Shown here: piece by piece, positions 326 to 57,552 of the stretch
Numbering within the stretch: position 1 is the first letter of the stretch
How the letters are laid out: each line of letters begins with the position of its first letter
Assembly (NCBI GenBank): GCA_963681505.1
Contig: OY811989.1
Span: 5,597,335 to 5,661,334, forward strand
DNA from: Eunapius fragilis
Taxonomy: Eukaryota > Porifera > Demospongiae > Spongillida > Spongillidae
Length of the DNA stretch: 64,000 nt
Direction: 5' to 3'
Made by a program: the position numbers and the translations under genes
Notes under the pieces: generated by a model
What the model was told of the DNA's origin: nothing
The model's input: only the letters and a program-made list of their open reading frames with translations
The model's database searches: none

Positions 326-3159
326 ATGGAGGGCGTCTCTGCCGTGTGCCGCGCAAACGTCGACGCCTTGGGGCTGGCCGTTATTATTGCGAACAGGAGG
401 GGTGCGCTACCTGGACAAGATGTGCTGGCAAATGTCGTGGTCGACAGGGACAATATGTGTGGTGCCTTCCAGCGGCTGCGGTTTGCAGTGATCAGTGTCA
501 CAGACGTCAGCACGGAGGAAATGATGGCGCTATTTCGCGAAGTGGCCAGCTTTCACAGCTACCCTCCCTCGTATCGGAGAATAGCCATCGTCTTTGCCGG
601 TCACGGGATAGAGGGAAGACTATGTGCACACGACGGAACCATACCCATCAAAGACATTATAGACCACTTCCAGCCCGACAGGTGCCATCCCAGCATCAGA
701 GGCATCCCTAAGCTGTTCTTCATCGATGCATGTCGCGGAGGTTTACATATGAGAGCGGTGGTCGCAGAGCGAGGCGGTACAGCCGTCCCACTGAGGGTCG
801 TACCGCAGTATGGTAACAGCCTAGTAGCTCATTCCACTATGTCCGGGTACAAGTCACACGAAGTTGCTGGAAGGGGAGGCATGTGGATGTCCCAGTTAAG
901 CAGTAAGATACTCCAAGACAAGAGTATATTGGACATCATGACTGACGTGAACCAGTCAATGATGGAGGAGTACCAGGACCCTCGTTACCAGCCCTACATA
1001 CAGCAGCCAACGTGTGAGAACACTCTAAATGAGACAGTTAACTTGTTCAGAGAGTCTCAATCAGGTTAGCTAATACCTTCACTCTTTGTCAGTCACACTT
1101 AACATACTGTTCTTGTACCCAGCTTTTGTCAGAGGACCCCCCTTCCAGGAACCACACCCCTCTCAGGGACCACACCCCTTCCTGGGACCACACCCCTTCC
1201 TGGGACCACACCCCTCCCTTGGACCACACCCCTCCCTGGGACCACTGCACTCTACTGCTGAACGTAGTAGTGGAACAACATCTGATGGATCACTACAGGG
1301 TGAGCTCATGGCATAGTGGGTGTGGTCCACACTGAAGTATTAGCATGTGGGTGTGGTCAGTACATTATGGTGGGCGTGGTCCACACTTAAGCATGGTGGT
1401 GTTAACCCCTAGGAGGCTCTGCCAGTAACTACAGGAAAGTGTTAAATGAGTGGTGCCAGCAGAATGCCATTGATGCAGGATCATGTAGGAGGTTTGCAGA
1501 ACGCTCAAACCCCCAGATGCACCAATGCACCATTACGGTGAGGAAGAGAGAGTTTTCAAGTGAGTGGCATGTGAAGAAGAAGGATGCAGAAGAGGAGGCA
1601 GCCAAGATGGCTGTGTTATGGCCACAGGGGCAGCAGCCACCATCTTTCCATTTGAGAGCAGCTGCTGGTACTGCAATAGGGTCAAAACCTTCATCACCTT
1701 CAGTGAGCCCTAATCTCTGTGGAAGCATCAAAGCAGCTGATAAAGCACTTGTGAGGCAGGGTATGGTGTTGTGCTGTTATTAAACGTTCATTGTTTGTGG
1801 GCTTGAGGATAAACTTAATTAAAGAATGATGTAGCTCACAAATTAAACTTCATTTAATCTACAAGTGCCGAAGGCTACCTAACGTTTGTGCTGGGTATAC
1901 CTAACACACACACTATTGGGTTTACCCTAACAAGGTTTGTGTAGCTCTAGTTAGTTTCTTGGGTGGTAAATCTTGCGTGTCTGAACACATCAGGAAGCTA
2001 TATTTGAGGCAGCTAATACAAATGAGTAGGTGCAAACATTGTTAGGTTTACATAATGCCCAGTACTTGTAGATTAAATACAGGCATCACTAAGGTGTCAT
2101 ATAAGTTGAGGTGTGACAAGGGAATGGATAAGAAAAGTAGGACAACCACCAGGGAAGGGGAGGGGGTTAAGGGGCAATCGTGGTGGTTTGGTACATGTAT
2201 ATACTGGCAGTGGTAAAATCACGCTTCTTGCACACAATTGAGCAACTCAGAGGTGTCGGAATTGGGGAGGAGGTGGAATGTAGGCTTCTGCCCTCCCCCC
2301 ATGTATTCTGATTTTAACTTAAGGCATCATAAATATCCTCCATTTCACTAGTGAAAAGTTAATTAATTAAATAATAATAATTTTATCCATACATACATAC
2401 ATCAAAACCTAAATAATAATAATTAAATAATTAGGAGGTCTCCCGTCGCAAATTAACTTTGACACCTCTGCAACAGGCCAATAACAAGTAAAGGTTCTGC
2501 AAACTATGGAATTTAATTATTTTGATCAAAAGTGGGTCGACCATTGCATCCTGGAATGGCACAGACTGTTGAGAACTTTTATTTTATTTAAAAAGCCAGC
2601 ATGGCATTTTTTCATCATGATTATAGAGGGATATCATTTGTAATGCACATTTATAATAGCCCATATCCTCTCTACTCATACACCAAAGGCTTTGAATTCC
2701 AAGCTTGACAGCATATTGTGTAAACATTTTTTAGGTGCTGAGATGACAATCCATGTCATACTGTATGTAATGGTGCCCAGGGCATGTTGATATATATACT
2801 GTTTGTTCACTGTACGTGACATAACAAGGTATTTATCCTTAGAACAACCCAATTTGAAGGAGCTACTGTCTTTTGAAGGCAAACAGAAGACATTCAATGT
2901 GGCTGAATGTGTGGGAACAAAGTACTCAAAGTTAGGCATCTTCCTTCTGAATGATGATACTGGAGCCATTGTAGAGGCACTAGAGAGACAATACTCACTG
3001 AATTCTGAGGAGATCAATGTAGCCATTTTTAGAAAATGGCTACAAGGGAAGGGAGCACAGCCTGTAGCTTGGTCAACACTGATAGATCTGTTGAGGGAGA
3101 TAGGCTTGTGTACACTGGCTGATGATATTGAAGGTGGTCTGATGTGTAGAGTAGTGTAA
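326..3159 (+). CDS. Caspase-fold protease with dsRBD and C-terminal Death domain (copy A)
   Basis: Four exons fit by phase: 326-1064, 1135-1299, 1413-1760 and 2843-3159, which give 522 residues. Residues 1-246 are a complete caspase fold (p20 plus p10). The catalytic pair is His93 in FAGHGIEG and Cys136 in FFIDACRGG. Exon 2 encodes a Pro/His-rich linker of GPHPFL-like repeats. Exon 3 encodes one full dsRBD (about residues 306-375, ending KKKDAEEEAAKMAV) and a short remnant of a second. Exon 4 reads as a Death domain (WLQGKGAQPVAWSTLIDLLR). The donor CAGG|gtatgg at 1760 and acceptor ccttag|AA at 2842 keep the frame. If exon 4 is skipped, the third exon reads on to a stop at 1783. Known: dsRBDs bind duplex RNA, and Death domains assemble apoptotic or immune complexes. 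Inferred: a dsRNA-responsive protease. The protease and dsRBD are firm; the Death-domain junction is a splice prediction. Confidence 0.8.
1852..2078. mobile_element. Short inverted-repeat element (MITE-like) in intron 3 of copy A
   Basis: The ends are inverted copies of ATTTAATCTACAAGT, at 1852-1866 and again reversed at about 2064-2078, enclosing about 200 bases without coding potential. This is the structure of a non-autonomous DNA transposon. The family is not recognised and no clear target duplication was seen. Confidence 0.5.
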
Positions 3160-3869
3160 TGTTGGTAGGTGCATGTAAGTGTTAATATATCAAACCACTA
3201 CTTTTTAATAATAATTGTTGTGACTGTAAAGTATATTGTTTCACTCCTCATGTCAAGAAATTTTGGACGCACATTAGCAATTCCTGGCCAATTTTGCAAA
3301 CGTCCGTCACATTTCCCACGCACACATCCATAGAAATGGATGGGGTAAAGTTCATTTTTTAATACCATAAATAAGGGAAAGTCGCTATTTAAGTTTTCCA
3401 GAAGCCCCGTGATGGATAACTTGATAACCTATCACTCTGCCAGGTTGATGGAATTTTCAGCCACTGCTGCTGGCTTCCTCATAAGGATTAGTACTCCTCC
3501 ATAGAGATGTATGGAAAATTGCTTTTTATAATGATTTTTTATCACTATTCTTTTTTGTTACTCTGAATGTAAGATAGGAAGGTATTGTTTTCCTCATTTC
3601 AGATGATGCTAATATGATCAAGGCAACTATCTACCGGTTCTCGTGCTCATAGGCTTCTTCCCCTGACTTTCTGGGGCACTTTTGGTCATGAGGGTACCTA
3701 GTTCAGTTGAATAAGGTTAAAAATTAATAAACGCCCGTGACAGTAAATTATTTCTGGCCGCGCAGAGCTGAAAGTAGCGAACTTAACAGCACGCAAATTG
3801 GGTATGTTCTTTGTTTGGAACTATATAAGATTGCATCTTTTTGGATCGATACTAAGCCGTTTGAAGTGT
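3160..3869. other. Non-coding stretch after copy A
   Basis: AT-rich sequence without a convincing exon on either strand. It probably holds the 3' UTR of copy A and spacer. No tandem repeat or recognisable element was found. Confidence 0.4.
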
Positions 3870-3984
3870 AGTCTCGTACCCAGACCATCAAACCCACAGC
3901 TGCGGATGGATTACATCACCGCTACGTGATAGCGGTGATGTAATACATCCGCAGCTGTGGGTTTGATGGTCTGGGTACGAGACT
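3870..3984. mobile_element. Near-perfect 115-bp fold-back element
   Basis: Two arms of about 55 bases, each beginning AGTCTCGTACCCAGACCATC from its own end, meet at a short centre around ctacgtgatag. The element is flanked by the direct repeat gtttgaagtgta (before 3870 and after 3985), consistent with an insertion. The terminal motif GTCTCGTACCCAGAC recurs near 26330 and, in variant form, upstream of the caspase copies. Confidence 0.75.
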
Positions 3985-4546
3985 AGTTTGAAGTGTATGG
4001 TCTGTCAAACACTGTCTGAGCAGTCCTAGGTCTATTCGATAAACAGTATACGTAACTACGTGTGTTTGCTTTCTGAAAAACTAAGGCATCACCGAAGGCT
4101 ACGTGTATAAGTAAGGCCACTATAGGCCTAGAGCTAGCTTTGTATATTCGACCACGTGGTGGCGCTATGAGTATTACATCTGGGAAATTAACGTTCCTTT
4201 TCTTTTGCTACTTTCCCTTTGCATACGTGCATATCCACATTTATAATGCGGTCGTTCTATATAGAATTCGAAGCGGACAATCACAAAGTCGTATATACGA
4301 TTTGCGCGACAGGGACAAGCCTTATAAGGACAGTGCCCAATTATAATCACGTGTGATCTGACTTATGGCTACGTAACTTTGGATGTGTTCTTTTTGGCTC
4401 CCTCTGCAGTGGCAGATCTAGGAGCGCGCGATCTCCTTGTCCGGGTTACTAGGAGCTGACAGCGACCTTCCAGACCCCTACCTAACTACAGAGAAAGCTA
4501 TTATCTATGACAAATCCGCTACTGCTTGAGCCAATAGGATGATGCC
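3985..4546. other. Spacer before minisatellite
   Basis: No gene was recognised. A short open stretch at 4140-4346 has no family resemblance. The segment gcagtggcagatctaggagc near 4407 resembles a hAT-type terminus, but no partner end was found. Confidence 0.3.
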
Positions 4547-4559
4547 ATGTACGTGTTGA

Positions 4560-5500
4560 CCCCCATCACTTTCTGTCTTCTCCCATCACTGTCCCCTCCT
4601 TCCCATCACTGTCCCCTCCTTCCCATCACTGTCCCCTCCTTCCCATCACTGTCCCCTCCTTCCCATCACTGTCCCCTCCTTCTCATCACTGTCCCCTCCT
4701 TCCCATCACTGTCCCCTCCTTCCCATCACTGTCCCCTCCTTCCCATCACTGTCCCCTCCTTCCCATCACTGTCCCCTCCTTCCCATCACTGTCCCCTCCT
4801 CCCCATCACTGTCCCCTCCTTCTCATCACTGTCCCCTCCTTCCCATCACTGTCCCCTCCTTCCCATCACTGCCCCCTCCTTCCCATCACTGTCCCCTCCT
4901 TCCCATCACTGTCCCTTCCTCCCCATTACTGCCCCCTTCTTCCCATCACTGTCCCCTCTCCCCATCACTGTTCCCTCCTCCTATCACTCTCCCCTCCTCC
5001 CTATCACTCCCCTCCTCCCTATCACTCTCCCCTCCTCTCCTCTCTGTCCCCTCCTCCCCATCTGTCCTCTCCTTCCATCACTGTCCCCTACTTCCCATCA
5101 CTGTCCCCTCCTTCCCATCACTGCCCCCTCCTTCCCATCACTGTCCCCTTCTTCCCATCACTATCCCTTCTTCCCATCACTGTCCCCTCTCCCCATCACT
5201 GTTCCCTCCTCCTATCACTCTCCCCTCCTCCCTATCACTCCCCTCCTCCCTATCACTCTCCCCTCCTCTCCTCTCTGTCCCCTCCTCCCCATCTGTCCTC
5301 TCCTTCCATCACTGTCCCCTACTTCCCATCACTGTCCCCTCCTTCCCATCACTGCCCCCTCCTTCCCATCACTGTCCCCTTCTTCCCATCACTATCCCTC
5401 CTCCCCACCACTGTCCTCTCCTTCCCATCACTGCCCCCTCTTCCCATCACTGCCCCCTCTTCCCATCACTGCCCCCTCTTCCCATCACTGTACCCTCTTC
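4560..5500. repeat. 20-bp C/T-rich minisatellite
   Basis: Tandem copies of CCATCACTGTCCCCTCCTTC-like units, at first almost perfect. A larger block of about 180 bp (about 4950-5130) is then repeated at about 5180-5370. The period and composition leave long open frames that should not be read as protein. Confidence 0.9.
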
Positions 5501-5505
5501 CTAAG

Positions 5506-6539
5506 ACGAGGTTCAACTCGATTTACAATATACCGTGGGGAGTGTCTGTCTGCTTTGGAGTTGAAGAATAAAGCAGACCTAGCTGAGTCCCTTGACAGCA
5601 GCTGCTGCTATGTTGCTATTACTGACGAGCTGATAGCAAACTTAGTTAGTGATGTTGAAGAGATGAAACAGAATTGGCATGGATACATGAACTCGAAAAC
5701 AGTGGGAAGGCTATTGATGAGCTATCGATAAGGCAGAGAAAAAGAAAATTGGAGGGGGTGAAAGGGAACGCTGTGAAGGCATTATCCTTCACGGAATCCT
5801 ACGGTCTAACTGCCGATACACTCACTATGCACACGGCGTCCGGTAAGAGTGTTCGCATTTCTCTTTCTGATTCGGATGCGCAAAGAGAAGAAAGGAGAGA
5901 ACTAGAAGTCCTGTATTTATTAGACAAGTATGGTGTGAGCGATGCTTTTTACCAGGCGCTATCAATGGAATGCAATAGCCTTCCGAGAGCATACAAAGTT
6001 AAAGCTGCTAGATCAGAGCTCAACAAAACAGTGGAACTATTCAGTATCCCAACGTTTGATGGGTCTTATAGGCACGTTGAAACGGCAATTCGGGAGGAGA
6101 TAACTAGACTGGTTAGTGTTTTTACAAATATCAGTTATATAATAATATGGTCAGTGTGTCCAGCAAACTCACCTTTGTGATACTTTTCAGGACAAGGAAA
6201 AGAATAGTAACGCTCGCATGGAAATGTATGGCTAACTATAAATTCAGTGCCCAATAACTTTATGATGATAGTCCAACTTTGATACATAATAATAATTTGA
6301 TAGAGGCTCTTTGCGGCTTATGAAAAATAAAAAAAACTCAAAAAAACAACCCAGAAGGGTGATTTTGCATGCTGGACACATCTGCAGCTTGGGGAATGTC
6401 CAACTTTGTTCCAGCCTGGTGAGAAGATTCCTATAAAATTCAGTGGTGATGGTGCTAAATTCTCAAGGACGAGCAACGTGATGATCTTGTCTTTTTCTAT
6501 CATAGTTCCTCAAGGCAGATATTTATCAGGATCTGGTAA

Positions 6540-6572
<33 letters not shown>

Positions 6573-9104
6573 TGTGTGTGTGTGTGTGTGTGTGTTTGTG
6601 TGTGCATGCATGTGTGTGGAAAGGGTGTAATGGTTAGAAAACCTTACATGTAGTACCTACATTACACAATGTTGTTTATTTATTACCACACACATTACAT
6701 GAAGATGCATGGTGATTGCTAACTACTGTAAAGTGTTTTTGTTTAGGGGGTAAACAATGGTTAATGTTTTGATGAAGGGCGAATGGTTGTGCACCTACCA
6801 CCTGCTTATAATTAGATGTAGCATGGGAAAGCATATATGGCATTAAAAGGGGAACATTGTCTAAGGTTAAAGTAGGTCTAGCCACCTGCCTGTCGGCAAC
6901 TCCCCCTTCTAAACATACTATCCCAAACTAGATTGTTCCTTTGTCTGGTTCCAGGTATTGTATTGCTATATATAATGGTGTTCTTGGGGAAAGCAACCAT
7001 TCAGTCTCATAGCCAGCTATTGATGACCTGAACTTTTGCTGACCCACCCACCACTCCTCTCATGCACTGTTTGTACCTGTACACTGATTTTCCTGTCATA
7101 CATCAATGGCAAGCGGCACCCTTCGGGCTTCTACCCTGACCAACCACGTCAAACCCATGACCACGTCATGGTGTGGCACATCTGGTCGCACCCAAGGCAA
7201 GCCAGCGCTACCTTGGTCCCAGTCTTGGCCTGATGGGTACACCCTGTCACCAGGTTGCTGCCTGACCCTTTTTGGGCAAACAGTTATCGTCAACTAGCTT
7301 AGACACATGACAGGGACCTAGATGGGGTATGCATGAGTCAGATATATAGGTTATGCATAAGCACAGAAGGCGCATTCATACAGCATTAAAGCATTAATTA
7401 CAGAGACAATAGCCAATGAAAATTTGGCTGCCCACAGTCAAGTTCTAACATCACTCCTATAGCATGCAGTCAGTACACACCACACAAACCAACGTAACTA
7501 CACACTTGACAAGGAGGGATGCATACATGTAGATCTGTGTACAACATTCTAAATAACTAATTTGTTTCTGAACATGTAGGCAACCACACAATAGCTGTCG
7601 TCAAAGGTCATGAAGACTATGAGACCGTATCAAAGACATTTGCGATACCATTTGGAGAAATACTTATTCGATGCAGGCTGCATAGATGTCAGTGAGAACA
7701 GTTACGAAATTGAACTGTTTTTTGGTGGAGACATGAAGGTACATGAAGGCTAAAATGTCTCTGTGTCAGTGGACTTGACAATGTGTCTATGCAGTTCATG
7801 TTGTTAGTTCTTGGTCGCAATGAAGCTCATGCTATTTATGCGTGCCCTTTCTGCACTGTTCATAAGGATGAGAATACCGTATTTATATGCATGTACGCAT
7901 GGATAGATGGGATACATCAAAGCCAGAAGTACTGTACACAGCCACCAAGGCAAGAACAATTGCATCACTTCGGTACGATAACTGGTTTCAAAGAATATTA
8001 AATTATTATGATTAATTTTCAGCATTGTTGTACAAGGGGAAGGTCTGTACAGTCGAGGCAAGGCTCTGTGAACCTGCCACTGCTAAAAATCCCAGTTGAC
8101 CACTATGCTATTGATGATCTTCATTTATTTCTCCGCATCTTTGATGTTTTGATGAGCAACATCATTGCATTGGCTTTATTAATGGATAGAACTGCAAGGG
8201 ATGGAAGCAAACAATACCTCGATGGCCTAATCACTGCCATCAGAAGCTGTGGTGTAACATTCCATATGTGGAAGGAGCAAGGTAGAGAACAGCTGAAGTG
8301 GACCTCTCTTACTGGTGACAGTAGAAAGGAAGTAATGAAGGTATTTATTATGTACAGCATGCTGTAGTCTGCTAGTGTATGTTCAGACACTGCCATCTAA
8401 ACTAATTGAAGTCCTACCTCATGAAACCATACAAGAAACTGTTGAACTATGGAAGGTAAGCAGAAGGCCTAACTGATTAGTTATGTGGTCATTAATATGG
8501 ATGGCAGGACTTTCAAGAGCTTTGCAACACCTTATCTGCAGAAGTACCAATTTATCTGGACACTATACACCAGAAAGTTAAGGTGTAGGTAGAACTGAGA
8601 ACTGTTACTGATCCTATTTTCTATTAGGCAAAGCAGTGGATTGATAGCTTTCTGTCAATATCTGCAGGAGGTTACGAAAAGAGTCATGTTACACCGTACA
8701 TGCACTGTATGGTATACCATGTATCAGAGTGCATTAGGCGGTATGGTAACATACGAAAGTTTTCAGGCCCAGGTGTGTATATCTGATTCTGAATGGAACC
8801 TGCAGTGCAATTTTTTATATGCTAAAAACACAATGACGATGCGAAGAGGGCGTACTTCTCAAGCAATAAATGGAATGCCTCCATGGGCATCATCAGAAGA
8901 GAAGCCAGGATTGACTGCTTACGAAAGTATGCTACCCCCAAAAGGCATTACACCAAGCACAATGATGCATACTGGCTCCATGGAGGCATTCAGGCAGTGA
9001 GAACATCTAGGAGGAATACAACACAACCAGATAACACCACTCCTCTCTCGTCCTCATCATCTAGCTCCACTTCTCCTTCCTCCTCCACCTGCACACACAC
9101 ATAA
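5506..9104 (+). pseudogene. Decayed copy of an uncharacterised multi-exon invertebrate gene family
   Basis: The pieces match, in order, a protein family I know only as uncharacterised and multicopy in sponges and cnidarians. The N-terminal exon (to 6111) has YLLDKYGVSDAFYQALSM. The next (to 6535) has IKFSGDGAKFSRTSNVMILS, then GNHTIAVVKGHEDYE (from 7580), ELFFGGDMK, and FMLLVLGRN..CPFCTVHKDE (from 7795). The later pieces are HYAIDDLHLFLRIFDVL (8023-8340), 8387-8455, 8508-8582, CMVYHVSECIRRYG (8628-8772) and NDDAKRAYFSSNKWNAS, ending at 9104. Exons are joined by short GT-AG introns. The frame changes inside otherwise conserved stretches near 5670, 7668, 7900 and 8832, so this copy is probably a recent pseudogene, unless these are sequencing errors. 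Function is unknown; the family could be a domesticated or mobile element. Confidence 0.6.
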
Positions 9105-11165: not shown

Positions 11166-11184
11166 GGGGTACGAGACTCCTGTA

Positions 11185-12812
11185 ATGGAGGGCGTCGTCG
11201 TTCCGGGAGTCCAGGCCCGTAGCCAGGGGGGTGCAAACGGGTGCAATTGCACCCTCCCGCTGGATGTAAGGTCCGCTCAGCTGGCTATGAATTTTATTAT
11301 AAACATGTCATTATTGTTCTCTGTAATCTACACTTATAGTGAGAGAACTGCCAGCTGTATATCTAGATAGTATCATGCACGTGGCCTGTACCAGCCAATC
11401 AAATATCGAGTGCAATACAGACTGTTTGATCTAAAATGGGACGACGTGAACTACGTGAACGCGAAAGAAAAAGAGCCGCTGCTAACTGTTTGTTCAATGG
11501 AGCAATTTCTTCCCCAACGAACAAAAAAAAAGGTTGACACGGCTACCAGCCAGCAGCAGGAGCATGGAACCAGTGAGTTGCAATTAGCTACATGTGGCAC
11601 ATCACTTGTAACAACGGTACAGCTCGTCACTGACGGCGAACCGCCAAGCCCAAATATCGTTCAGCAGCAGCCAACCATAGCAATGGAAATCACGCAACCT
11701 TCTTGCGCTGATAGTGACACTGATAACATCACTACACAATCAGGCACTGCTGCATTTCAGCTAAGCGCTGAACCCAGCTCAAGTAGGCATTGTACAGAGT
11801 GTAACACGGTCACTGAAGAAGTAGAGTTGAAACCAACTGATATTGGTGAGATTTATTATGTTAGTAAATCTTCACATGACTTTTGTGTGGCTTTGAAATC
11901 TCTGTCTACTGCTGAAAGGTATACATTATTAAAACACAACAAACAGCCTTCATCATCGTACATTTACCCAGTCACTTTGATAGGAAAGTACAGGCGTCGA
12001 TTCAGGCAATCGTGGTTGAATCAATACCGGTGGATTGTGTACAGTAATAAGTGTGATGGGGTATTTTGTGCGTTGCTAGGTGACAATCATAGTCGAGCTA
12101 CTACATTCACCTTATATAGTTTTTAAATTGTAATGAAATTGCATGGCTGGTGGGTATCTGATTGTAATAAATTTACAAATGGAAAATTATAAGCAATATG
12201 TATAGCTCACATATACTGGTTTGGGGACATTAAGCAACCTGTTACTTTTCATCTGTGGCCAATAAACGGGGTACCCTTGAGTCCACTGAGCCAAACTTTG
12301 CACCCCCCCCCCCCCCCCCAATACAAAACCTGGCTACGGGCCTGGAGTCTTTGCCGTGTGTCGCACAAACGTCGACGCCTTGGGGCTGGCCGTTATTATT
12401 GCAAACAGGAGGGGCCCAATACCTGGACAAAATGTTCTGGTTAACGTCGCGGTCGACAGGGACAATATGTGTGGTGCCTTCCAGCGGCTGCGGTTTGCAG
12501 TGACCAGTGTCACAGACGTCAGCACGGAGGAAATAATGGCGCTATTTCGCGAAGTGGCCAGCTTTCACAACTACCCTCCCTCGTATCAGAGATACATATA
12601 TTATCTCTGATCAGAGGCATCCCTAAGCTGTTTTTCATCGATGCATGTCGCGGAGGTTTACATATGGGAGCGGTGGTCGCAGAGCGAGGCGGTACAGCCG
12701 TCCCACTGAGGGTCGTACCGCAGTATGGTAACAGCCTAGTAGCTCATTCCACTATGTCCGGGTACAAGTCGCACGAATTTGCTGGAAGGGGAGGTATGTG
12801 GATGTCCCAGTG
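11185..12812 (+). pseudogene. Broken caspase-fold gene (copy B) interrupted by a hAT-like element
   Basis: The start ATGGAGGGCGTC at 11185 matches copies A and D. The protein is then split by an inserted element (11212-12344) and resumes at about 12350 with VCRTNVDALGLAVIIANRRG. The stretch holding the catalytic His (IAIVFAGHGIEG to CHSS) is absent. Around 12590-12611 it is replaced by filler containing the small palindrome agagatacatatattatctct. The Cys box FFIDACRGG survives. Homology stops at 12812, in the p10 part, and no dsRBD exon follows. The surviving DNA is very close to A and D, so the copy died recently. Confidence 0.85.
11212..12344 (+). mobile_element. hAT-like DNA transposon, non-autonomous, inserted in caspase copy B
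   Basis: The ends are inverted CAGGCCCGTAGCCAGG (start 11212, reverse complement ending 12344), typical of hAT termini. They are flanked by gagtc on both sides, shorter than the 8 bp usual for hAT. The open frame 11410-12126 ends with YPVTLIGKYRRRFRQSWLNQ followed by YRWIVYSNKCDGVFCALL, like the N-terminal zinc-finger (TTF-type) region of hAT transposases. It stops before any catalytic domain, so the element cannot move itself. A C-run of about 17 lies just inside the right end. Confidence 0.75.
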
Positions 12813-13140
12813 CGGTTCATGCCTTCCAGGAGTGCCTGGGCCACCATCAGGTCGAACAGAGACATGCTTTTCACTGTTTAGCTGAATCTGCAAATGAAAT
12901 AATTTCCCCTCTCGGCGGGGGGCGGGGGGGTTTGGTTTTTGGTAAGGGCGTGGGGATTGGATTTGATTGGCATGTCTTCGGTGGTACGTGTGTACCTCTT
13001 TACGCAAAAAATACACATATACACGTGTGACATTATTTGCTACTAATCACTCCGCGGGCCGGGCCCGCCCTTGCAGTATTACCGTTAATGATCACACTTT
13101 TATGTGGAGTAAAAAAAAAGTTCAATGTGTGTGCGTGCGC
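12813..13140. other. Spacer between broken copy B and SH3 gene
   Basis: No gene was recognised. The stretch is G-rich near 12915 and otherwise has no structure that I can name. Confidence 0.3.
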
Positions 13141-16100
13141 TCAATTAGGCCAGAACCACTTCCCAAACTGGTCCCAGCTATCCATTGAGGTGAACACAAG
13201 TTCGTTCATCCCGCTCTCCTCAGAGGACTGGAGGGTCCCCTGTTCAACAATCTTCTTGTTCCACTCCACCTCCAGCACCTCGTTGTCCTGCAGGGGCCAT
13301 ATGGTGATGGTCCACCCTGCGGCATCAGTGTGGTGGCAGAGCTCGTCATCTATCCCTCTGATCTGGTCCCTCGGCTTCCCAAAGCATTCGAAGTGCTTGG
13401 ACAGCTCTCTATGGAGGACCTCTGCCTTACCCACATACACCTGGAAAAATATGGAACAACACTGGTCCCCAGATCATTCACATAGACCATACAATTGCTA
13501 TACTCCTCCCCAGACTATACTTTCTAATGACACTCCTCACCAATGGGCCCAGGTAATACCTTCCCATGGATACTCTTCCCCATGCCATACCTCCTCATGG
13601 ACATGGATAGCTTCCCCAGGCCATACCTTCTCATGGACATGGATAACTTCCCCAGGTCATACCTTTTCACATGGATAACTCTTCCCCAGGTCATATATAC
13701 CTTTTCACATGGATAACTCTTCCCCAGGTCATACCTTCTCATGGTTCATATACTGCATCATGTAGACAGCCTGCATGGTGGTCACAAAGTCCTCATATGA
13801 TAAGTTAGCCTTCCTAGCCAGCACGTGGAGCAGAGCCTCCTTAGTTGGGGGAAAGCCAACATGAGAATACCAACCAGAGAGCTTGATAAACTCATCCCGA
13901 TCTGCCAGGGGGGTGGAGAGGAGGGAAGGGAAGGGAGGGGGGTGGAGAGGAGGGAAGGGAAGGGAGGGGGGTGGAGAGGAGGGAAGGGAAGGGAGAGGGT
14001 GGAGAGGAGGGAAGGGAAGGGAAGGGGGTGGAGAGGAGGGAAGGGAAGGGAGAGGTGGGAAGGGAAGGGAGGGGGGTGGAGAGGAGGGAAGGGAAGGGAA
14101 GGGGGTGGAGAGGAGGGAAGGGAAGGGAGAGGAGGGAACGGAAGGGAGGGGAGTGGAGAGGAGGGAAGAGAAGGGAGAGGAGGGAAGGGAAGGGAAGGGA
14201 GGGAGGAGGGAAGGGAGAGGAGGGAAGGGAAGGGAAGGGAGAGGAGGGAAGGGAAGGGAGGGGTTGAAGAGGAGGGAAGGGAGAGGGTGGAGAGGAGGGA
14301 AGGGAGAGGAAGGAAGGGAAGGGAGGGGTTGAAGAGGAGGAAAGGGAGGATAGTTAAATAGATTATTCAATAACATACTTTGTAGAACATACTTTCATAC
14401 AACTGGCTATGACATGCAACCTTTGGAACCCTGAGAGGGGGAGAGAGACAGGGGTGAGGTGGATAGTGGGATAGTGTGGTCACGGTGAGGGTGGATAGTG
14501 GAATGGGTGTGGTCATTAGGAGGTGGATAATGGATGGGTGTAGTCAAGGTGAGGGTGGATAGTGGGATGAAAAGTAGTACACGTGGTATAACTCAACTTA
14601 TAGTTGCCTTCATCGCCTTCTGTGTAGAAAAAGGAAAAAAGTTTAATGAGAGAAGGAAGCTGTGTTTTGTCACCTTCATCTGACACATACACCAGCTTCA
14701 CATGGGTGATGGGAATAGCTCCTCTCTCACTGGGGGCACATGCTTTTTGAGCATAAAACCAGCACAGGTCCTGGGAGGGAGGGGAGGGGGAGGGGGAGAG
14801 AGGGAGGAGGGAAGGAGGGAGGGGAAGAGAGGGAGGAGGAAAGGAGGGAGGAGAGAAGGAGGGAGGGGAGGAGAGGGGAGGTGACACACTTAAATAGCAA
14901 GTGAAAAAGAAATCCTCACTAATCACCATGACCTGCTTACATCCATCGGCTTCAGTAATGTCATCTCTTCATACATATTGAAGGACATATCCTACATTCA
15001 CACACACAAACATACACATACATGTTTCTATGGAAACAATGCATACCTCGTTGCTCTGGGCAACAAACTGGCAGGTGGCAATGACAAGAGTGCCTGGAGG
15101 GAGTCTCCTCTGTGCCTCCCTCTGTTGGGTGTGGAGCAGATCCTGCAAACATCAAGGTCATGTGACCTACTTCCTGCTTCCATCAAGGTCATGTGACCTA
15201 CTCTGCGCCTCAAACATCATGGTCATGTGACCTACTTCCTCAACGCTTCAAGATCACTTCCCCCTCAAACATCACTGTCATGTGATCTAGTCACCTGACT
15301 TACTGCAATTATTTTAATTTCCTTTCTCCTCCCTCCCCTACAGATATTACTCAGATCTTACCCCCCCTCCCCCCAGACACCCCTCCCCATAGATCTTACC
15401 CCTCACCCATAAATATTGCCTCTCCCCCATAAATCATATCCCTCCCCCATAATGCCCCCCCCCCCCCCCCCCCCCCCTCTGTGCAGTACACACCTCATCT
15501 ATTGTGGCCTGCACCTCAAGGAAGTCAGTACCACTCCAGGACATGAAGGATGATAGGTCCAGAGCTGGATCCACCTCTGACTCACTACCAGTAGGACAGT
15601 GGCTGCTTGTGTAGCTGTTTGTTACTATTGTGGAGGGATGATGGAGAAGGGGGAGGGGAGGGGAGAGGGAGGGGAGAGGGAGGGGGAAACGGACACATGT
15701 ATGGTGGTCATAAGGTGGTGGTCATAAGGTGATGGTCATAAGGTGTTCATAAGGTGGTGGTCATAAGGTGGTGGTCATAAGGGTGTTCATAAGGTGGTGG
15801 TCATAAGGTGGTGGTCATAAGGATGTTCATAAGGTGGTGGTCAGAAGGTAATGGTCATAAGGTGGTGGTCATAAGGTGGTGGTCATAAGGGTGGTCATAA
15901 GGGTGTTCATAAGGCAGTGGTCATAAGGTGGTGGTCATAAGGTGGTGGTCATAAGGTGGTGGTCATAAGGTGGTGTTCATAAGGTGGTGTTCATAAGGTT
16001 GATCATAAGGTGGTGGTCATAAGGGTTTTCATAAGGTGGTGGTCATAAGGTGGTGGTCATAAGGTGGTGGTCATAAGGTGGTGTTCATAAGGGTGGTCAT

Positions 16101-19100
16101 AAGGTGGTGGTCATAAGTGCAGCAGTCATAAGGCAGTGGTACACAAGTTATGATAGTGGTGGTCATGTGACCAGACACAAGTGGTGGTCATGTGACCAGA
16201 CACAAGTGGTCTTTCTTTACTCTTTGCACAAGTGATGTGACCCCTGAGATGTGACCCCGTGACCCCTGAGACATCAGCTTCAGCTTACCATGGTGAAGTG
16301 GAATGAGGTAAGTTTTTGGTACTAAGCCAGTAAGTCCAGCAGCGTTCTTCGCCACATACCAGAAAGCCATCTAAGTTCAGAGATTACATCACACCATTTA
16401 GCCAGTAAACTGCAGGTGCTATTTTCCCCGCCGGTGTAGGAGGCAGGATGGACTCTTCCGGTAAGGTGAACTCTAGAGTACTCGTTACCTGCAGGCATCC
16501 TGTACTCTAGAGTACACCATACCTGAGCACAAGGCCAGGTAGAATGGACTCTACCAGGTAAGGTGGACTCTACTCTTTCCACATACACATATTACAATCA
16601 TATAATTAATTAGGAAACAGTTGATGCTGAAGAGATATAATATAATTAATGCAGTGCTGAACGGGTATAAGATAAATAATGCACTACAAAAAAAAAAAAC
16701 AGATGAAGTACATCCTGATTGCATGAAATGAAAGTTACACACCACTTGTGACAGTCTTGACACGGTTAAAATGGTTTCCAGTATTGTGCAAATAAATACA
16801 AATTGATGTGTCAGCATCAGAGCACAAAGGAGAATAGTGATGCCAGAGAGGTACTTTTGCACCAGGAGGATGGTAATAAATGGCAATTGTAGTCTTCAAT
16901 AGAGTTGCCAGTGCAATTACTTCAACTTCAGTCAATGCCAATCTGAATTCCTGTTTCATCAGTATCTTTTTTCTTTACTTCATCTTCCTGTCTATCATGA
17001 AATTTCTTGAGATTGCAACCATTCTGTTTTTGCTTTAACATCTTGCCATTCATAGTTTTCACTTGATATACACCGTTAGGCAGAACCTTATCAATAAAAT
17101 AAGGACCATCATAGGGCAAACATCCTTTACCACCTTTCCTATCTGCTCGCCTTAAGTTGTATAAAAGTACTTTTTCACCAATACTGAATTCTGTTTTTAA
17201 TTGGTGCCTTCTTTCATAATCTTTCTTTTGCCTTTTTTGGGCTTTATCAATGCTCTTTGCAGCTTCTTGGTGAATTACTGATTGTACGTTTAGAATGCGG
17301 CTCAGTTGTTCTTGTAACTCTTTTTCATCAACGGGTGATTCATCTGTGGTTATCACCTCAGCATCTGCACCATCCTGCGGGAAAGCTTCATTTTCAATGG
17401 GAAGGAGGGCTTTGCGACCATATAACATTTCAAATGGTGTCTGACCAGTAGATTTGTGCCGTGCTGTGCGAAAAGCAAACAAAACCCCTTGAAGAGCATC
17501 AGGCCATCTTTGCTGTTCACCTTCAAGGACTTTTAGCATACTACCCTGTATGGTTCTATTTTGACGTTCTACAAGCCCGTTAGCTTGGGGATGGTAGGCA
17601 CTAGTAACCCTTTGTGAAGTGCCTGTAAGTTTTAGTAGAGTATGTGAAACTGCATTGCAAAATTCCCGTCCTTGATCATTGATCTGTATACAGGTACATC
17701 CATGGCGACAAATAAGCTCATACAAGAAGACTGCCACTTCATGTGCAGTCTTGGCCTTCAGAGGCTTTGCTTCTACCCACTTTGAAAAATAGTCTACAAC
17801 AACACAAACACATACAAATCCTTCATCTGTATCGGGTAGGCTGCACAAATCCACTTCAATTTGGTACCAAACCTTACTAGGGATAGGGATTGGATGCAGT
17901 TTAGTTGCAGCCTTATCAAAACGCGTGTTTCCACGTTGGCATTGTGCACATGTTTTGACAAACTGTCTCGCATCAATATTCATTCTTGGCCACCACATAT
18001 TGGCATCCACCAACTTTTGAATCGTTTTATCCCGACCAACATGACCCCCCATGGATTTAGATTGGATTGTTTCCCCAGCACCTTCATGAACAGATTTCAG
18101 TACCTTGTTCCTCGCCTCTACATCCTTTACTACTCCAAGTAGGCAGGGGCTCCACTTTTCCCCTTCATCTTAACCTCCGCATACTTAAAATGCAGTATGC
18201 CTTTCAGTAGAATGTACTTACTGGACACTTTTCTTAAATTGGATTTCAAGTCTGGTCTACCTTTCATTTTCTCTGGGTACAGCCGCTAGATAAATACGCT
18301 TCAATTGCATTGTAATCGGGTTCGTCAGCGCCATTACTTGTGGTGTCAGCATCTTCTACGTCTTTCACTTCTCCATTCATCGTATTATCTACCGTTTCAT
18401 TCTCTTCTCCATTGCCTGTATCTGCCATTTAGAAATATTTCTAGGGCACCACGTGATTGAGATGCTGTTTGCAGCTGTTTGCAGGTTGCGATCAGAGTTA
18501 ACTGATTGATAATTACAGATTCCAAAATTCCAATCGGAGAGTCCATCCTACCTAGGTAGTGCGGACCGTAGATTATATGTTACCTGACTGAGTACACCTT
18601 ACCCACGTAATTGTTTAGGTACCATGGACTGTAGAGTGCACCTTACCTCCAGGCGCGGTGTACTCTAGAGTTCGCGCTATACCCAGGTACCGTGTAATCT
18701 AGATTCCATTATACCTAGAGTACATTGGACCTATTACACCGGCCCGCGCCACGTTATGATGCACACAGATCATTGTTTGCTTTGCAATAACAAAAACACG
18801 CACACACATATTGACACAAACACGACTGCTCCCGGCGGGCCGGCTGCTAATTTATTAATTATTAGGAATTATTACATGCGTACGTACAGTAGTACTACAT
18901 GCACACATGGACTAGGTATTGCGCCGACTTACTTCGGCCTGTCGTACAATAGTCAGGACTTCTCCCTGCGTGAACGTGAGATCCTGCGAAGGTAGAGCGG
19001 TTTAGCACACACCCACAATGCGCACGCTCCACGCACTTACTCCTGCTTCCTGACCATTGAAGTCTTGCTCCGCAACACAGACCTGGTTGGGGAGAAAGGC

Positions 19101-19191
19101 CTCTTCCTAGAAACACGAGCGGCTGCATGAGACAAGACGTCATAACGACAGGCAGTACCTCGTCCCCCACAAGAACAGCTTCTTCGGACAT
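13141..19191 (-). CDS. Two-SH3-domain adaptor-like protein
   Basis: The start ATG is at 19191 (MSEEAVLVGDE). The first four exons fit in phase: 19159-19191, 19041-19106, 18933-18983 and 16289-16370. Together they form an SH3 domain, EQDFNGQEAG / DLTFTQGEVLTIV / FWYVAKNAAGLTGLVPKTYL. Later exons at about 15494-15600, 15040-15144, 14940-14990 and 14650-14770 give a second SH3-like unit (VIATCQFVAQSNEDMSFNMY, then DDLCWFYAQKACAP and GAIPITHVKLVY). Further exons at about 14590, 14390-14440, 13735-13905 and 13141-13440 encode a C-terminal region I do not recognise, ending DQFGKWFWPN. SH3 domains bind proline-rich peptides, so a signalling adaptor is likely; the specific protein is unknown. The gene starts 243 bp from caspase copy C, head to head. 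A Ginger1 transposon fills most of intron 3. Middle exon borders are approximate. Confidence 0.7.
13905..14345. repeat. Polypurine GGGAAGGGAAGG tract
   Basis: About 440 bases of nearly pure purine on the + strand, built from gaggagggaagggaaggga-like units inside an intron of the minus-strand SH3 gene. Such mirror-like polypurine tracts can form triplex or quadruplex DNA. Long open frames here are artefacts. Confidence 0.9.
14775..14880. repeat. Second GGGAGG polypurine tract
   Basis: About 100 bases of G/A-only repeats, again in an intron of the minus-strand SH3 gene. Confidence 0.85.
15700..16130. repeat. 12-bp minisatellite ggtggtcataag
   Basis: More than 30 copies of ggtggtggtcataa-type units with length variants (gggtgttcataag). 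It lies in an intron of the SH3 gene. Confidence 0.9.
16435..18738 (-). mobile_element. Ginger1-type DNA transposon with integrase-like transposase and OTU domain
   Basis: The element runs TGTAGG...ATTACA and is flanked on both sides by CCGG (16431-16434 and 18739-18742), the target duplication known for Ginger1. Both ends carry diverged inverted repeats rich in ACTCTAGAGTA and GGTAAGGTG modules. On the minus strand, 16928-18052 encodes a Gypsy-type integrase: an H2C2 finger, a DDE core, the motif YHPQANGLVERQNRT and a GPYF box (YDGPYFIDKV). A minus-strand segment at 16735-16959 resembles the C-terminal half of an OTU protease (WHHYSPL, TGNHFNRV). Ginger1 proteins are known to combine these domains. 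The coding region appears broken, with at least two interruptions. The element lies in intron 3 of the SH3 gene. Confidence 0.88.
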
Positions 19192-19434
19192 GTGTGTCGA
19201 CTGGTGCAGAGGAAACAGCGTCGCAGTATTAAATTATACAGAAACCAAAACCCAAAGTGACGTCGTCGCATTATCTTTGACCACACCTCCATCCACTTTC
19301 ATAGTGGTGACGCCTGTCACGAAAAATTCTATCCGTCCGTAAAATATTATCCTAGGATAATTTTTGTCGTGACACGCCACTCGGGCGAAGGGGATTCCCC
19401 TGGTTGAGCCCCCTCGTTGACGGTTGCTAGTGGG

Positions 19435-21611
19435 ATGGCTTCATTAGTACAGACAGTGTGCAGTGATCAGCCAGGTGCAAAAGGTCTCTGTGTTATCATT
19501 GCAAACACGCAGGGGAATCGTAGTGGTATGCCATTACTGGAGGGCGTGGAGAGTGACCGCGTGAATATGGAACGAACGTTTAAGACCTTGAAGTTTGCTG
19601 TGTTGTGCTTGAAGAATCGCGGTGTGTACGATATGATGACGCTATTTCGCGAGGTCGCTCGCTATCCCGACTATCCTCCCTCGTATCGGAGGATAGCCAT
19701 CGTCTTTGCCGGTCACGGGATAGAGGGAGAACTGTGTGCACACGACGGAACCATACCCATCAAAGACATTATAGACCACTTCCAACCCCGCAACTGCCAT
19801 TCAAGCATCAGAGGCATCCCAAAGCTCTTCTTCATCGATGCGTGTCGCGGGGAAAGAGAGATGGAGCTGGTCGTCACGGCGCGAGGCGGTACAGCCGTCC
19901 CATCGAAGGTCGTGCCGCAGTGCGGGAACAGCCTTACAGCGTACTCCACCATGGAAGGCTACAAGGCGCACGAAGTGGCTGGGGGCGTTTGGATGACCGA
20001 GCTGAGTGTGAAGTTGCTACAGGACAAGAGCATACTTGATATTATGACGGACGTAAACAAAGTCTTGTTAGAGAAGTTTCAAAACCCTGGCATGAGCAGG
20101 TGTGTACAGCAGCCAATTCTGGAGTCCACTCTAACTGAACACATCAATTTGTTAAAGGAAAGCAGAGGTACTGGTATGTTTATGTGTATGTATGTGTATG
20201 TGTGTGTGCATGTGTATGTATGTGTGCATGTGTATGTATGTGTATGTATATGTATGTATGTGTGCATGTGTATATGTGTGTTGTTTTGCAAAAGTTTGTG
20301 TACACCACTCGTATCCTACTGTTCCATAACTGATTCACACACATGTACACACCCGCTCATAACTGCATGTCCTTAATTAATCAGTGTGTTACACAATCTC
20401 ACACAAAAAAACACTCTCAGATTAACACATTAAATCCCTCCCCTCCCCCCTCCCCCCCCCCCCCCCCATCAGAGGAAAACCCCCCCAACATGTGACTGTT
20501 TGGAAAGTGAAGATGATTGCAGGGAGCAGGTAGCCATGAGAGCAGTCAGTTTCATCCAGGGCCAGATGACTGCACGAGGTGGTGTGTGTGCCCCACCCAC
20601 CTTTTCTGGCAACCAATGTGGGACCGGGGAGGAGGATCTATCATGTGAAGGGGGAGAGGTGACTACGCTAAGTAAGAGTAATGGCTGTATGGTGGGGGAG
20701 GAGGTGGGGAGGGGTGGTGGTAGGGAGGAGGTGGGGGTGGGGAGGAGGTGAGGAGGGGTGGTGGTGGGGAGGAGGTGGTGGTGGGGAGGAGGTGAGGAGG
20801 GGTAGTGGTGGGGAGGAGGTGGGGAAGGTGGGGAGGGGAGAGGAGCATGTGATTGGCATCGTGGTGTTACATATGATGAATAGTTCACAAAATTTTCTTA
20901 GGAGGGAGAACTCACCATCAGGAGCATATATGTGATCTAATTATCAGCATGACTGGTGATGTAATAGCTGCTCTTTACGGCAGCTGCCTCATCACCCGCC
21001 TATTCTAATGGTTGAGGTGATAGTTTTAATGGGGTTAAATTTTGCTCATGAAGTAGACACCTGTTACCATGGATACTTTCCCCCATTGTTACCATGGATA
21101 CCACCCTTGCTCAGCTGCGTCCAGGAATTACAGGCAGGAGCTACATGAGTGGTGTCAACGCAACAAAGCTGCTGCCACTAGAACTTTTGACACAACTGTT
21201 GAAGGCCATAGCTGCTCCATTACAATCAACAACAAAACCTTTAGGAGCAAGCCATGCGCTAGAAAGAGGGAGGCAGAAGAAGAGGCCGCCATGAAGGCTT
21301 TGGGGTCACCACAGAAGGGAGAGGAAGAGGCCGCCATGAAGGCTTTGGGGTTGCTACAGAAGCACCACCAGCTCTCTCCTAGCCAACCTGGTAAGATGCG
21401 TCTGAAGGAATACTGTGACCATCATCCAGAGAAGCAACTAAGGCTGAAATATGATATTACCTCCAATACGACCAATGGACCTTTCCAGTGTACCCTGACC
21501 ATATCAGCACCCTTAGTAATGCACCCTATTGTGGTAACTGGAGATCTCTGTAAAAGCGTCAAAGAGGCTGAACACAGTGCAGCTGATAAGGCACTATTGA
21601 AGCTCAAATGA
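19435..21611 (+). CDS. Caspase-fold protease with two dsRBDs (copy C)
   Basis: The start ATG at 19435 (MASLVQTVCSD) opens a 244-residue caspase fold in exon 1, 19435-20167. It carries the catalytic boxes FAGHGIEG and FFIDACRG and a p10 part with MEGYKAHEVAGG. Exon 2 (about 20475-20671, acceptor uncertain) encodes an acidic linker, CLESEDDCREQVAMRA. The last exon, 21115-21611, has two dsRBDs. The first starts NYRQELHEWCQ and ends with a small internal duplication, EEEAAMKALG twice. The second starts KMRLKEYCDHHPEK and ends HSAADKALLKLK. It is the most diverged member of the local family, yet its catalytic core is nearly identical in DNA to copies A and D. The predicted role is the same as for copy A, but with no Death domain in reach. 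Confidence 0.78.
20175..20285. repeat. GT-rich microsatellite at the exon 1 donor of copy C
   Basis: A tgtatgtgtg run begins just after the exon 1 donor. It supplies several extra GT donors in different phases, so the true exon 1/exon 2 junction is ambiguous. Confidence 0.7.
20690..20840. repeat. GGGGAGGAGGTGG repeat
   Basis: G-rich tandem repeat in the second intron of copy C. It opens spurious frames on both strands. Confidence 0.85.
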
Positions 21612-21824
21612 TACATTTGTGTGACATACATGCATATGAGTCGATCAAAACATTCTATAGTTTTATATTTATTTTTATAATGGTGATCATGCATCCTGAA
21701 CCTTACGTAATAGTAAGCATCAAGTATAAAGACCCCCCCCCTCCACTCTTCCGCCTACGGACACGCTCCTAGCAGAAATAGCTTTGAAACTCTTCGATTG
21801 TTGAAATTGATCACCTCGATCAGC

Positions 21825-22147
21825 GGTATTTGATGCAGTCCTAGAGCGCGTCTCGATCACGTGATAATAAGCCTCGTCGGTCTCCACTAATTGCAATAAT
21901 AATATAGCTAGAATGTGCGTGCGATGGCATGTGGATGATGCACAACGGTTCAGTCAGCGGGTTAGCCATAAATATGGATACATTAAGGCGAGGGTATAAA
22001 CTGTTCAACCACTTTTTATATTCATAGAGAGAACCAATAATCAGCGCAGTTGTTGTTAGTCTGGTCCCCAGACTAGGGGGGGGGGGGGGGGGGAGGTGGT
22101 GGTTTCTCAATAAATAGGGTCTGGGAACGAGACTATTTCGCTACGTA
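21825..22147 (+). promoter_or_regulatory. Duplicated promoter of caspase copy D
   Basis: Near-identical to 1-325 ahead of copy A, including the TATAAA at 21995-22000 and the gggtctgggaacgagact motif about 20-40 bases before the ATG. It differs mainly by small indels and a longer G-run at 22075-22095. Confidence 0.5.
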
Positions 22148-23894
22148 ATGGAGGGCGTCTCTGCCGTGTGCCGCGCAAACGTCGACGCCTTGGGGCTGGC
22201 CGTTATTATTGCGAACAGGAGGGGCCCAATACCTGGACAAAATGTTCTGGTTAACGTCGTGGCCGACAGGGACAATATGTGTGGTGCCTTCCAGCGGCTG
22301 CGGTTTGCAGTGATCAGTGTCACAGACGTCAGCACGGAGGAAATGATGGCGCTATTTCGCGAAGTGGCCAGCTTTCACAACTACCCTCCCTCGTATCGGA
22401 GAATAGCCATCGTCTTTGCCGGTCACGGGATAGAGGGACAACTGTGTACACACGACGGAACCATATCCATCAAAGACATGATAGACCACTTCCAACCCCG
22501 CAACTGCCATTCAAGCATCAGAGGCATCCCTAAGCTGTTCTTCATCGATGCATGTCGCGGAGGTTTACATATGGGAGCGGTGGTCGCAGAGCGAGGCGGT
22601 AAAGCCGTCCCACTGAAGGTCGTACCGCAGTATGGTAACAGCCTAGTAGCTCATTCCACTATGTCCGGGTACAAGTCGCACGAAGTTGCTGGAAGGGGAG
22701 GCATGTGGATGTCCCAGTTAAGCAGTAAGATACTCCAAGACAAGAGTATATTGGACATCATGACTGATGTGAACCAGTCAATGATGGAGGAGTACCAGGA
22801 CCCTCGTTACCAGCCTTACATACAGCAGCCAACGTGTGAGAACACTCTAAATGAGACAGTTAACTTGTTCAGAGAGTCTCAATCAGGTTAGCTAATACCT
22901 TCACTCTTTGTCAGTCACACTTAACATACTGTTCTTGTACCCAGCTTTTGTCAGAGGACCCCCCTTCCAGGGACCACACCCCTCTCAGGGACCACACCCC
23001 TTCCTGGGACCACACCCCTTCCTGGGACCACTGCACTCTACTGCTGAACGTAGTAGTGGAACAACATCTGATGGATCACCACAGGGTGAGCTCATGGCAT
23101 AGTGGGTGTGGTCCACACTGAAGTATTAGCATGTGGGTGTGGTCCACGCTGAAGTATTAGCATGTGGGTGTGGTCCACACTGAAGTATTAGCATGTGGGT
23201 GTGGTCCACGCTGAAGTATTAGCATGTGGGTGTGGTCAGACTTTAGCATGGTGGGTGTGATCAGTACCTTATGGTGGGCGTGGTCCACACTTAAGCATGG
23301 TGGTGTTAACCCCTAGGAGGCTCTGCCAGTAACTACAGGAAAGAGTTAAATGAGTGGTGCCAGCAGAATGCCATTGATGCAGGATCATGTAGGAGGTTTG
23401 CTGAACGCTCAAACCCCCAGATGCACCAATGCACCATTACAGTGAGGAAGAGAGAGTTTTCAAGTGAGTGGCATGTGAAGAAGAAGGATGCAGAAGAGGG
23501 GGCAGCCAAGATGGCTGTGTTATGGCTACAGGGGCAGCAGCTACCTCCTCCTGTGGTCCAGAAGTCTCTGGTACAAACACCTCCTTCCTCTATGATCCAG
23601 AGGCCTTTGGTACAACCATCGTTCCAACGGTCTCTGAGTTCTCCAGCTGCTACTTCAAAACCAGGGAAGGCATTGCTTAAGGAGTATGGTGATCGCCACA
23701 CAGACCTGCAGATGACCCAAGACTTTAACGTTATTGCCACTTCCAATGGACTCTTCCAGTGCATGCTAACAATTACATTACCTTCAGTGGGCACCCTTAC
23801 AGTTACTGGAGATAGCTGCAAGAGTAAAAAAGAAGCAGAACACGACGCAGCTAATAAAGCACTCGTGAGGTTGAGGAAGCAGTATGGAGAGTGA
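22148..23894 (+). CDS. Caspase-fold protease with two dsRBDs (copy D)
   Basis: Exons 22148-22886, 22957-23085 and 23317-23894 join in phase to give 481 residues. The caspase fold is almost identical to copy A (FAGHGIEG, FFIDACRGG, GYKSHEVAG). The exon 2 linker has fewer GPHPFL repeats than copy A. Exon 3 holds two dsRBDs: the first from NYRKELNEWCQQ to KKKDAEEGAAKMAV, and the second from KALLKEYGDRHTDL to EAEHDAANKALVRL, followed by the stop. Copy A has lost most of this second dsRBD, so D shows the ancestral layout. The duplication with copy A covers promoter, exons and introns and must be recent. The likely role is a dsRNA-binding cysteine protease. Confidence 0.85.
23095..23245. repeat. 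32-bp repeat gtgggtgtggtcca
   Basis: About four copies of a unit containing gtgggtgtggtccac and tgaagtattagcat in the second intron of copy D. Copy A has about one to two units at the equivalent place, so the array expanded after the duplication. Confidence 0.75.

Positions 23895-51764: not shown

Positions 51765-57552
<5,788 letters not shown>

Follow-up and report, generated by a model that had tools for sequence, protein, structure and literature searches.

Sponge genes predicted to join a caspase-fold protease to double-stranded RNA-binding domains and to give it an acidic substrate pocket

Within its first 24 kb, a 64,000-nucleotide stretch of the genome of the sponge Eunapius fragilis (the window; C19:5597335-5661334 in a genome of 219 Mb on 24 contigs) carries a family of genes in which a caspase-fold protease exon is followed by an exon for double-stranded RNA-binding domains (dsRBDs). 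At the sequence level these genes are well supported, and they represent a variant of the published dsRBD-caspase type with an unexpected substrate pocket, predicted to be acidic as in MALT1. An earlier note on this DNA described four copies, A to D, of which B is broken. The family is larger than that: a fifth copy, Z (C19:5594682-5597122), stops some 0.2 kb short of the window, and a more remote member, E, lies on the same contig at C19:1290993-1292431, 4.3 Mb from the cluster. The copies within the window are composed as follows.

326-1064, + strand: copy A exon 1, caspase-fold protease with His in FAGHG and Cys in DACRG, donor in phase 1 (PF00656, splice model)
1123-1299, + strand: copy A optional proline-rich cassette, 177 bp, in frame, phase 1 at both ends (splice model only)
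1413-1783, + strand: copy A exon 2, dsRBD1 (about 1430-1615), with dsRBD2 largely absent (dsrm, match to D, splice model)
12344-12811, + strand: copy B, caspase pseudogene of A/D type (Pfam, DNA comparison, genome searches)
19435-20167, + strand: copy C exon 1, caspase-fold protease (PF00656, splice model)
20473-20578, + strand: copy C relic of the middle exon of Z (splice model; the modelled join hits a stop)
21115-21611, + strand: copy C exon 2, two dsRBDs (about 21129-21302 and 21402-21605; dsrm, Dicer_dimer, splice model)
22148-22886, + strand: copy D exon 1, caspase-fold protease (PF00656, splice model)
22945-23085, + strand: copy D optional proline-rich cassette, 141 bp, phase 1 at both ends (splice model only)
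23317-23894, + strand: copy D exon 2, two dsRBDs (about 23334-23528 and 23691-23879; dsrm, Dicer_dimer, splice model)

Pfam scans identified both domains with confidence. The caspase exons match Peptidase_C14 (PF00656) at 5.5e-33 in A, 3e-32 in C and 7.4e-32 in D, and over all five intact members (A, C, D, Z and E) the values range from 4.4e-30 to 5.5e-33, spanning p20 and p10 from profile position 1 or 2 to 230 of 233 (221 in E). All five keep the catalytic dyad, in GHG and DACRG. The dsRBD exons match dsrm in a single stretch in A (1.8e-6) and in two stretches in C (4.4e-15), D (8.4e-13) and Z, with an additional match to Dicer_dimer in C (3.4e-7) and D (1.9e-7). Cut-offs for both domains are thus passed in A, C, D and Z; the absence of a dsRBD signal in profile searches, which that note had named as the outcome that would count against it, did not occur. 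Its statement that one or two dsRBDs stand behind each caspase holds for A (one) and for C and D (two), but not for B, behind which genome searches matched none. Both domains are rare in this genome. There are at least 24 Peptidase_C14 places, five of them in the cluster (A, B, C, D and Z), and at least 14 dsrm places, four of them in the cluster (A, C, D and Z), both counts being lower bounds. Given this rarity and the E-values, chance is ruled out as the source of the domain matches. Basic residues ahead of helix 2 of the dsRBDs are kept in C and D (KREAEEEAA, KKKDAEEGAA and SKKEAEHDAA), which suggests binding of double-stranded RNA (dsRNA).

In the gene models, the caspase and dsRBD exons join in frame across one phase-1 intron in every intact member. 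The predicted proteins have 369 amino acids (aa) for A (326-1064 + 1413-1783), 409 aa for C (19435-20167 + 21115-21611), 438 aa for D (22148-22886 + 23317-23894), 424 aa for Z (locus L013, 6683-7415 + 8582-9123) and 447 aa for E (locus L015, 4494-5370 + 5466-5932). In A and D, exon 2 requires another exon upstream of it: an in-frame TAA starts 10 bases ahead of its acceptor, and its first Met is already within dsRBD1. From these models we infer that the two exons are spliced into one transcript. Copy Z also has an optional middle exon of 130 codons with phase 1 at each end (L013:7687-8076, by splice model), which has decayed in C. We considered this exon as an extra dsRBD, which is unproven: its helix-strand pattern looks dsRBD-like by eye, no Pfam family passes its cut-off, and a match to HlyU (0.00044, under its cut-off) was taken as noise.

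The most unexpected feature of the family is the S1 pocket. In caspase-7, the side chains of R87, Q184 and R233 bind the P1 aspartate, and in MALT1 the similar places are occupied by D365, D462 and E500; peptidases of C14A recognise Asp, whereas those of C14B recognise Arg or Lys (accessible parts of PMC4357240). We placed these positions, in caspase-7 numbering, on a MAFFT alignment whose 15 rows cover 16 of the 24 Peptidase_C14 places, MALT1 itself not being among the rows. (Outside it stand B, C18:1427088, C20:11621, C2:16455210, C3:10288172, C3:10257451, C2:5427218 and C21:2013321; rows C20b and C7 look degenerate.) Leu, Asp and Glu replace R87, Q184 and R233 in all five intact members, and the same L/D/E was obtained when D was aligned pairwise with caspase-7 and E with caspase-3. 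None of the three Asp-binding residues of C14A is therefore kept in any member, whereas R/Q/R is retained by three of the genome's ordinary caspases (C20a, C13m and C13p). In this alignment, made without the MALT1 sequence, the MALT1-type acidic set (D, D, E) is present in all five. The Asp that matches D365 says little, as it occurs in ordinary caspases of the genome too; the informative changes are therefore Q to D, R to E and the loss of R87. Thus the S1 pocket is predicted to be acidic as in MALT1 and, given L/D/E at the Asp-binding positions, cleavage is predicted after Arg or Lys instead of Asp. The earlier description of a caspase-type protease therefore stands for the fold and the His/Cys dyad, but the predicted pocket does not look like that of an ordinary caspase.

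Among the best 60 of 146 and of 192 PDB matches, caspase-7 and caspase-3 are closest in sequence, which speaks against C14B, and neither of the domains expected beside the protease in a MALT1-type protein, Death and Ig, was matched by the modelled exons of the five intact members. In a tree of 13 rows, from which two MALT1-like rows were excluded, the five members fall on one side of a branch with support 81/81, the tree being unrooted and subject to a long-branch warning. The acidic pocket is likely to have arisen within the caspase line.

Member E shares the exon plan, the intron phase and the L/D/E pocket with the cluster, although its exon 1 is only 32% identical to that of D and 38% to that of C. 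By eye, its exon 2 resembles two divergent dsRBDs, and the presence of dsRBDs there is possible to probable.

Outside the family, the tandem-dsRBD exon closest in sequence lies on another contig, at C1:23179740-23180164 on the minus strand (dsrm 1.5e-12). A genome search with this exon returned itself and seven matches, all seven in the cluster. In the gene model (C1:23179740-23181111, minus strand, locus L047, 256 aa), phase-1 joins connect it through a linker to a CARD exon (1.5e-5, 25.3 bits against a cut-off of 23.9). The product is possibly an adaptor from dsRNA to CARD that lacks a helicase. As a related exon thus follows a protease in one case and a death/immune adaptor domain in the other, this gene provides the best indirect evidence for a role of the family in defence.

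Initiator caspases and MALT1 are activated by induced proximity, and caspase-fold domains commonly by dimerisation. On sequence evidence, we give about an even chance to the proposal that dsRNA clusters the encoded proteins and so activates the protease by proximity, as an antiviral-type sensor. Each intact gene would encode, in one protein, both the dsRNA sensor and the protease. Several molecules would be loaded onto one long dsRNA by their C-terminal dsRBDs, of which A has one and C, D and Z have two each, and the N-terminal caspase-fold domains, brought together in this way, would dimerise and become active. Once active, the enzyme would cleave proteins of the host, with Arg or Lys and not Asp as the most likely P1 residue, and this would result in cell death or in a defence signal similar to that of MALT1. 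Here the dsRNA binding, the dimerisation, the Arg/Lys specificity and the antiviral role are what we infer. A more far-reaching version is tentative: a dsRNA-activated protease whose pocket is acidic and of Arg/Lys type, evolved from the caspase line separately from MALT1 and the metacaspases, acting as sensor and executioner in one protein, with a related phase-1 tandem-dsRBD exon shuffled onto CARD to form a second dsRNA-signalling branch.

Several observations weigh against these proposals. The pocket assignment comes from alignments. The dsRBD exons gave no PDB match when searched as single sequences and weak matches as an alignment (best 0.0011), and dsRBDs can serve dimerisation instead of RNA binding. 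Exon 2 of E stays below every Pfam cut-off and has no dsrm match (Dicer_dimer 0.004, DSRM_2 0.043). With a profile of 11 dsRBDs from the genome it scored 0.055 among 1978 open reading frames (ORFs), where the best chance ORF scored 0.11, and with a profile of five non-cluster dsRBDs it was not listed; its hhalign probability against the cluster dsRBDs was 3%. The CARD match on C1 is weak and falls outside the 25 genome-wide CARD places, the weakest of which has 26.7 bits. Finally, five matches to the RIG-I C-terminal domain mean that another kind of dsRNA sensor is probably present in this genome.

Of the alternatives, RNA housekeeping holds up best, and we regard it as unlikely. Here the dsRBDs would direct the protease to RNA-processing complexes of the Dicer or ADAR type, or to structured RNAs of the cell, where it would trim protein partners. 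The match of the dsRBD2 region to Dicer_dimer, a dsRBD-like fold of Dicer, would fit such a role, as would an ADAR-like dsRBD gene in the genome (named from reading). However, the block duplication, decay and copy-number turnover described below are atypical of housekeeping genes, and the related dsRBD exon is joined to CARD, a death/immune-signalling domain.

It is also improbable that these proteins are scaffolds with no protease role, in which the caspase fold serves dimerisation, signalling or as a decoy and the pocket changes reflect lost proteolysis. The replacement of all three Asp-binding residues could be read in this way, as could the loss of most of dsRBD2 from A and the death of B. 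Yet His and Cys are kept in every intact member, and an identical L/D/E in a protein as divergent as E is hardly a product of decay. Divergence at nonsynonymous (dN) and silent (dS) sites, calculated exon by exon using NG86, argues in the same direction, with dN below dS in exon 1: dN/dS was 0.033/0.073 for A-D, 0.0115/0.028 for Z-C, 0.307/0.984 for C-D and 0.328/1.064 for Z-A. For exon 2 the values were 0.013/0.079 for Z-C and 0.465/2.76 for C-D, where silent sites are near saturation; the A-D value (0.259/0.648) is not meaningful owing to the deletion in A. Pairs involving E are saturated, and the recent pairs (A-D and Z-C) are based on few changes. Since C and D split, both exons appear to have been under constraint.

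More doubtful still is an ordinary RNA-regulated caspase that cuts after Asp in spite of its pocket, as the oyster dsRBD-caspases might. The similarity to caspase-7 and caspase-3 noted above favours it, as do the two DSRM domains on executioner-type caspases in the accessible part of the oyster paper (PMC7836458), but no member keeps R87, Q184 or R233 and the domain order is opposite to that of the oyster proteins. As to an artefact in which the caspase and dsRBD exons come from separate adjoining genes, the models are known from genomic DNA only, but we reject it as very improbable on the splice phases, with phase-1 donor/acceptor pairs in all five members, the TAA and internal Met of A and D, and the same exon pair again 4.3 Mb away in E, albeit with a dsRBD signal below every cut-off.

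If a dsRNA-activated protease of this kind is confirmed, viral RNA would lead to proteolysis with no adaptor, the sensor being the protease itself. After that of the oyster, the family would provide a second case of a caspase fold combined with dsRBDs, in the opposite order and with a switched pocket, and dsRNA sensing may then have been wired to the caspase fold more than once. Three changed pocket residues on a caspase-like backbone offer a direct test of how P1 specificity switches, and the CARD-dsRBD gene is a ready partner or comparison.

The cluster owes its present form to a block duplication, whose two copies were delimited by self-comparison.

1-1641, + strand: right end of the duplicated block, Z+A copy (block start about 7.9 kb before the window)
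12812-23545, + strand: duplicated block, C+D copy

From about -7.9 kb to 1641 the sequence matches 12812-23545 in co-linear pieces, the longer of which are 90-98% identical, giving a block of 9-11 kb. Because the blocks match co-linearly, Z pairs with C and A pairs with D. The two gene types, A/D and C/Z, are about 60-63% identical in exon 1; they predate the block duplication, which multiplied both. A 2.3-kb stretch at about 16435-18736 is found only in the C+D block and was probably inserted after the duplication. It contains an integrase ORF (16928-18169, minus strand; Integrase_H2C2 2.9e-12, rve 3.1e-8), which we label as Gypsy-type. Copy B, a pseudogene and third fragment of A/D type, matches Peptidase_C14 as two separate pieces, each in its own frame (3.6e-5 and 2.9e-7); it keeps the Cys segment, lacks DNA matching D 22402-22517, the catalytic-His segment, and is missing its p10 end. 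In copy A the DNA match to D ends at 1641, with most of dsRBD2 lost. The local duplication, decay and transposon traffic proposed in the earlier note are therefore all seen, as the block duplication, pseudogene B and the integrase-bearing insert.

Gene conversion among the copies is likely, because C and D have few silent differences in one region (two in C codons 77-126, against four to eight in other windows of 18-25 codons) and because the introns of A and D are 99% identical over 312 aligned bases although dS in exon 1 is 0.07. Dates derived from dS are therefore unsafe. The low-divergence tract between C and D covers 50 codons around the catalytic His, at about 19663-19812 of the window and about 22380-22530 in D. 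Separately, a 45-bp tandem unit lies in the helix 2/linker region of dsRBD1 in Z (L013:8746-8874) and C (window about 21270-21350), with 2.9 copies in Z by TRF and fewer in C by alignment; as its copy number varies, linker length differs between near-identical copies.

With its caspases, its CARD and RIG-I C-terminal domains and its ADAR-like gene, the genome has an animal-like set of genes. Other caspase-like sequences were observed elsewhere in it. A group with an FDCC motif, at C21:2013321, 2084002 and 2228392, is unlike both the ordinary caspases and the dsRBD family. Two paracaspase-like exons, at C14:2767966 and C20:11621, have identical translated frames, from a recent duplication or as an assembly duplicate. 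A metacaspase was reportedly described from the sponge Amphimedon in 2016. In the window, a Death-like ORF downstream of A (2791-3159, plus strand) was rejected as a family member, with a match of 0.012, below the cut-off, and a position outside the duplicated block. Beyond the cluster are a long coiled-coil ORF that is IFT81-like (42302-44488, minus strand) and a RecQ-like helicase ORF (51888-52670, plus strand), both named from reading. NCBIfam gave weak matches only, far below cut-off (to the RNase III dsRBD region for C and D), and viral contigs scanned with the caspase alignment yielded 60 pattern matches and no relatives.

Among the papers listed in searches of the open-licence literature, judged by titles and abstract starts, there was none on a sponge dsRBD-caspase or on an acidic-pocket dsRBD-caspase. 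In the accessible part of a paper on dsRNA-induced apoptosis in cnidarians and bilaterians, CARD, DED and NHR are named as partners of 160 caspases, and no dsRBD (PMC11251625); the term 'dsRBD' does not occur in that of another (PMC8195603), and DSRM appears in a legend of bivalve caspase combinations (PMC10967218). The pairing of caspase and dsRBD does have a precedent in the published Pacific oyster Cg3C-like A and B, caspases with two DSRM in the prodomain encoded by two closely placed genes, for which the authors suggest a role as detectors of viral pathogens (accessible part of PMC7836458). The likeness is a caspase domain and two dsRBDs in one protein. By the published description, however, the oyster DSRM lie in the prodomain of proteins grouped with executioner caspase-3C and a legend gives the motif QACXG, whereas in the sponge family the dsRBDs are C-terminal behind a phase-1 intron, the motif is DACRG and the pocket is predicted to be acidic. 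Going by that description of the oyster proteins, our guess is that the two origins were independent.

By our alignments and the accessible part of PMC4357240, the sponge family is like MALT1 in carrying acidic residues where MALT1 has D365, D462 and E500; it differs in having dsRBDs, in modelled exons that match neither Ig nor Death, and in having caspase-7 and caspase-3 as its best PDB matches. Metazoan initiator caspases likewise combine a caspase fold with a recruitment module, but are recruited by CARD or DED, whereas in the sponge family dsRNA itself would do the recruiting. RIG-I-like receptors resemble the CARD-dsRBD gene on C1 in leading from cytosolic dsRNA to CARD signalling; unlike them this gene has no helicase, and RIG-I C-terminal domains are found elsewhere in the genome. 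PKR, with two dsRBDs and a kinase, is similar in carrying tandem dsRBDs and a dimerisation-activated enzyme on one chain, while in the sponge family a protease takes the place of the kinase and the dsRBDs are C-terminal.

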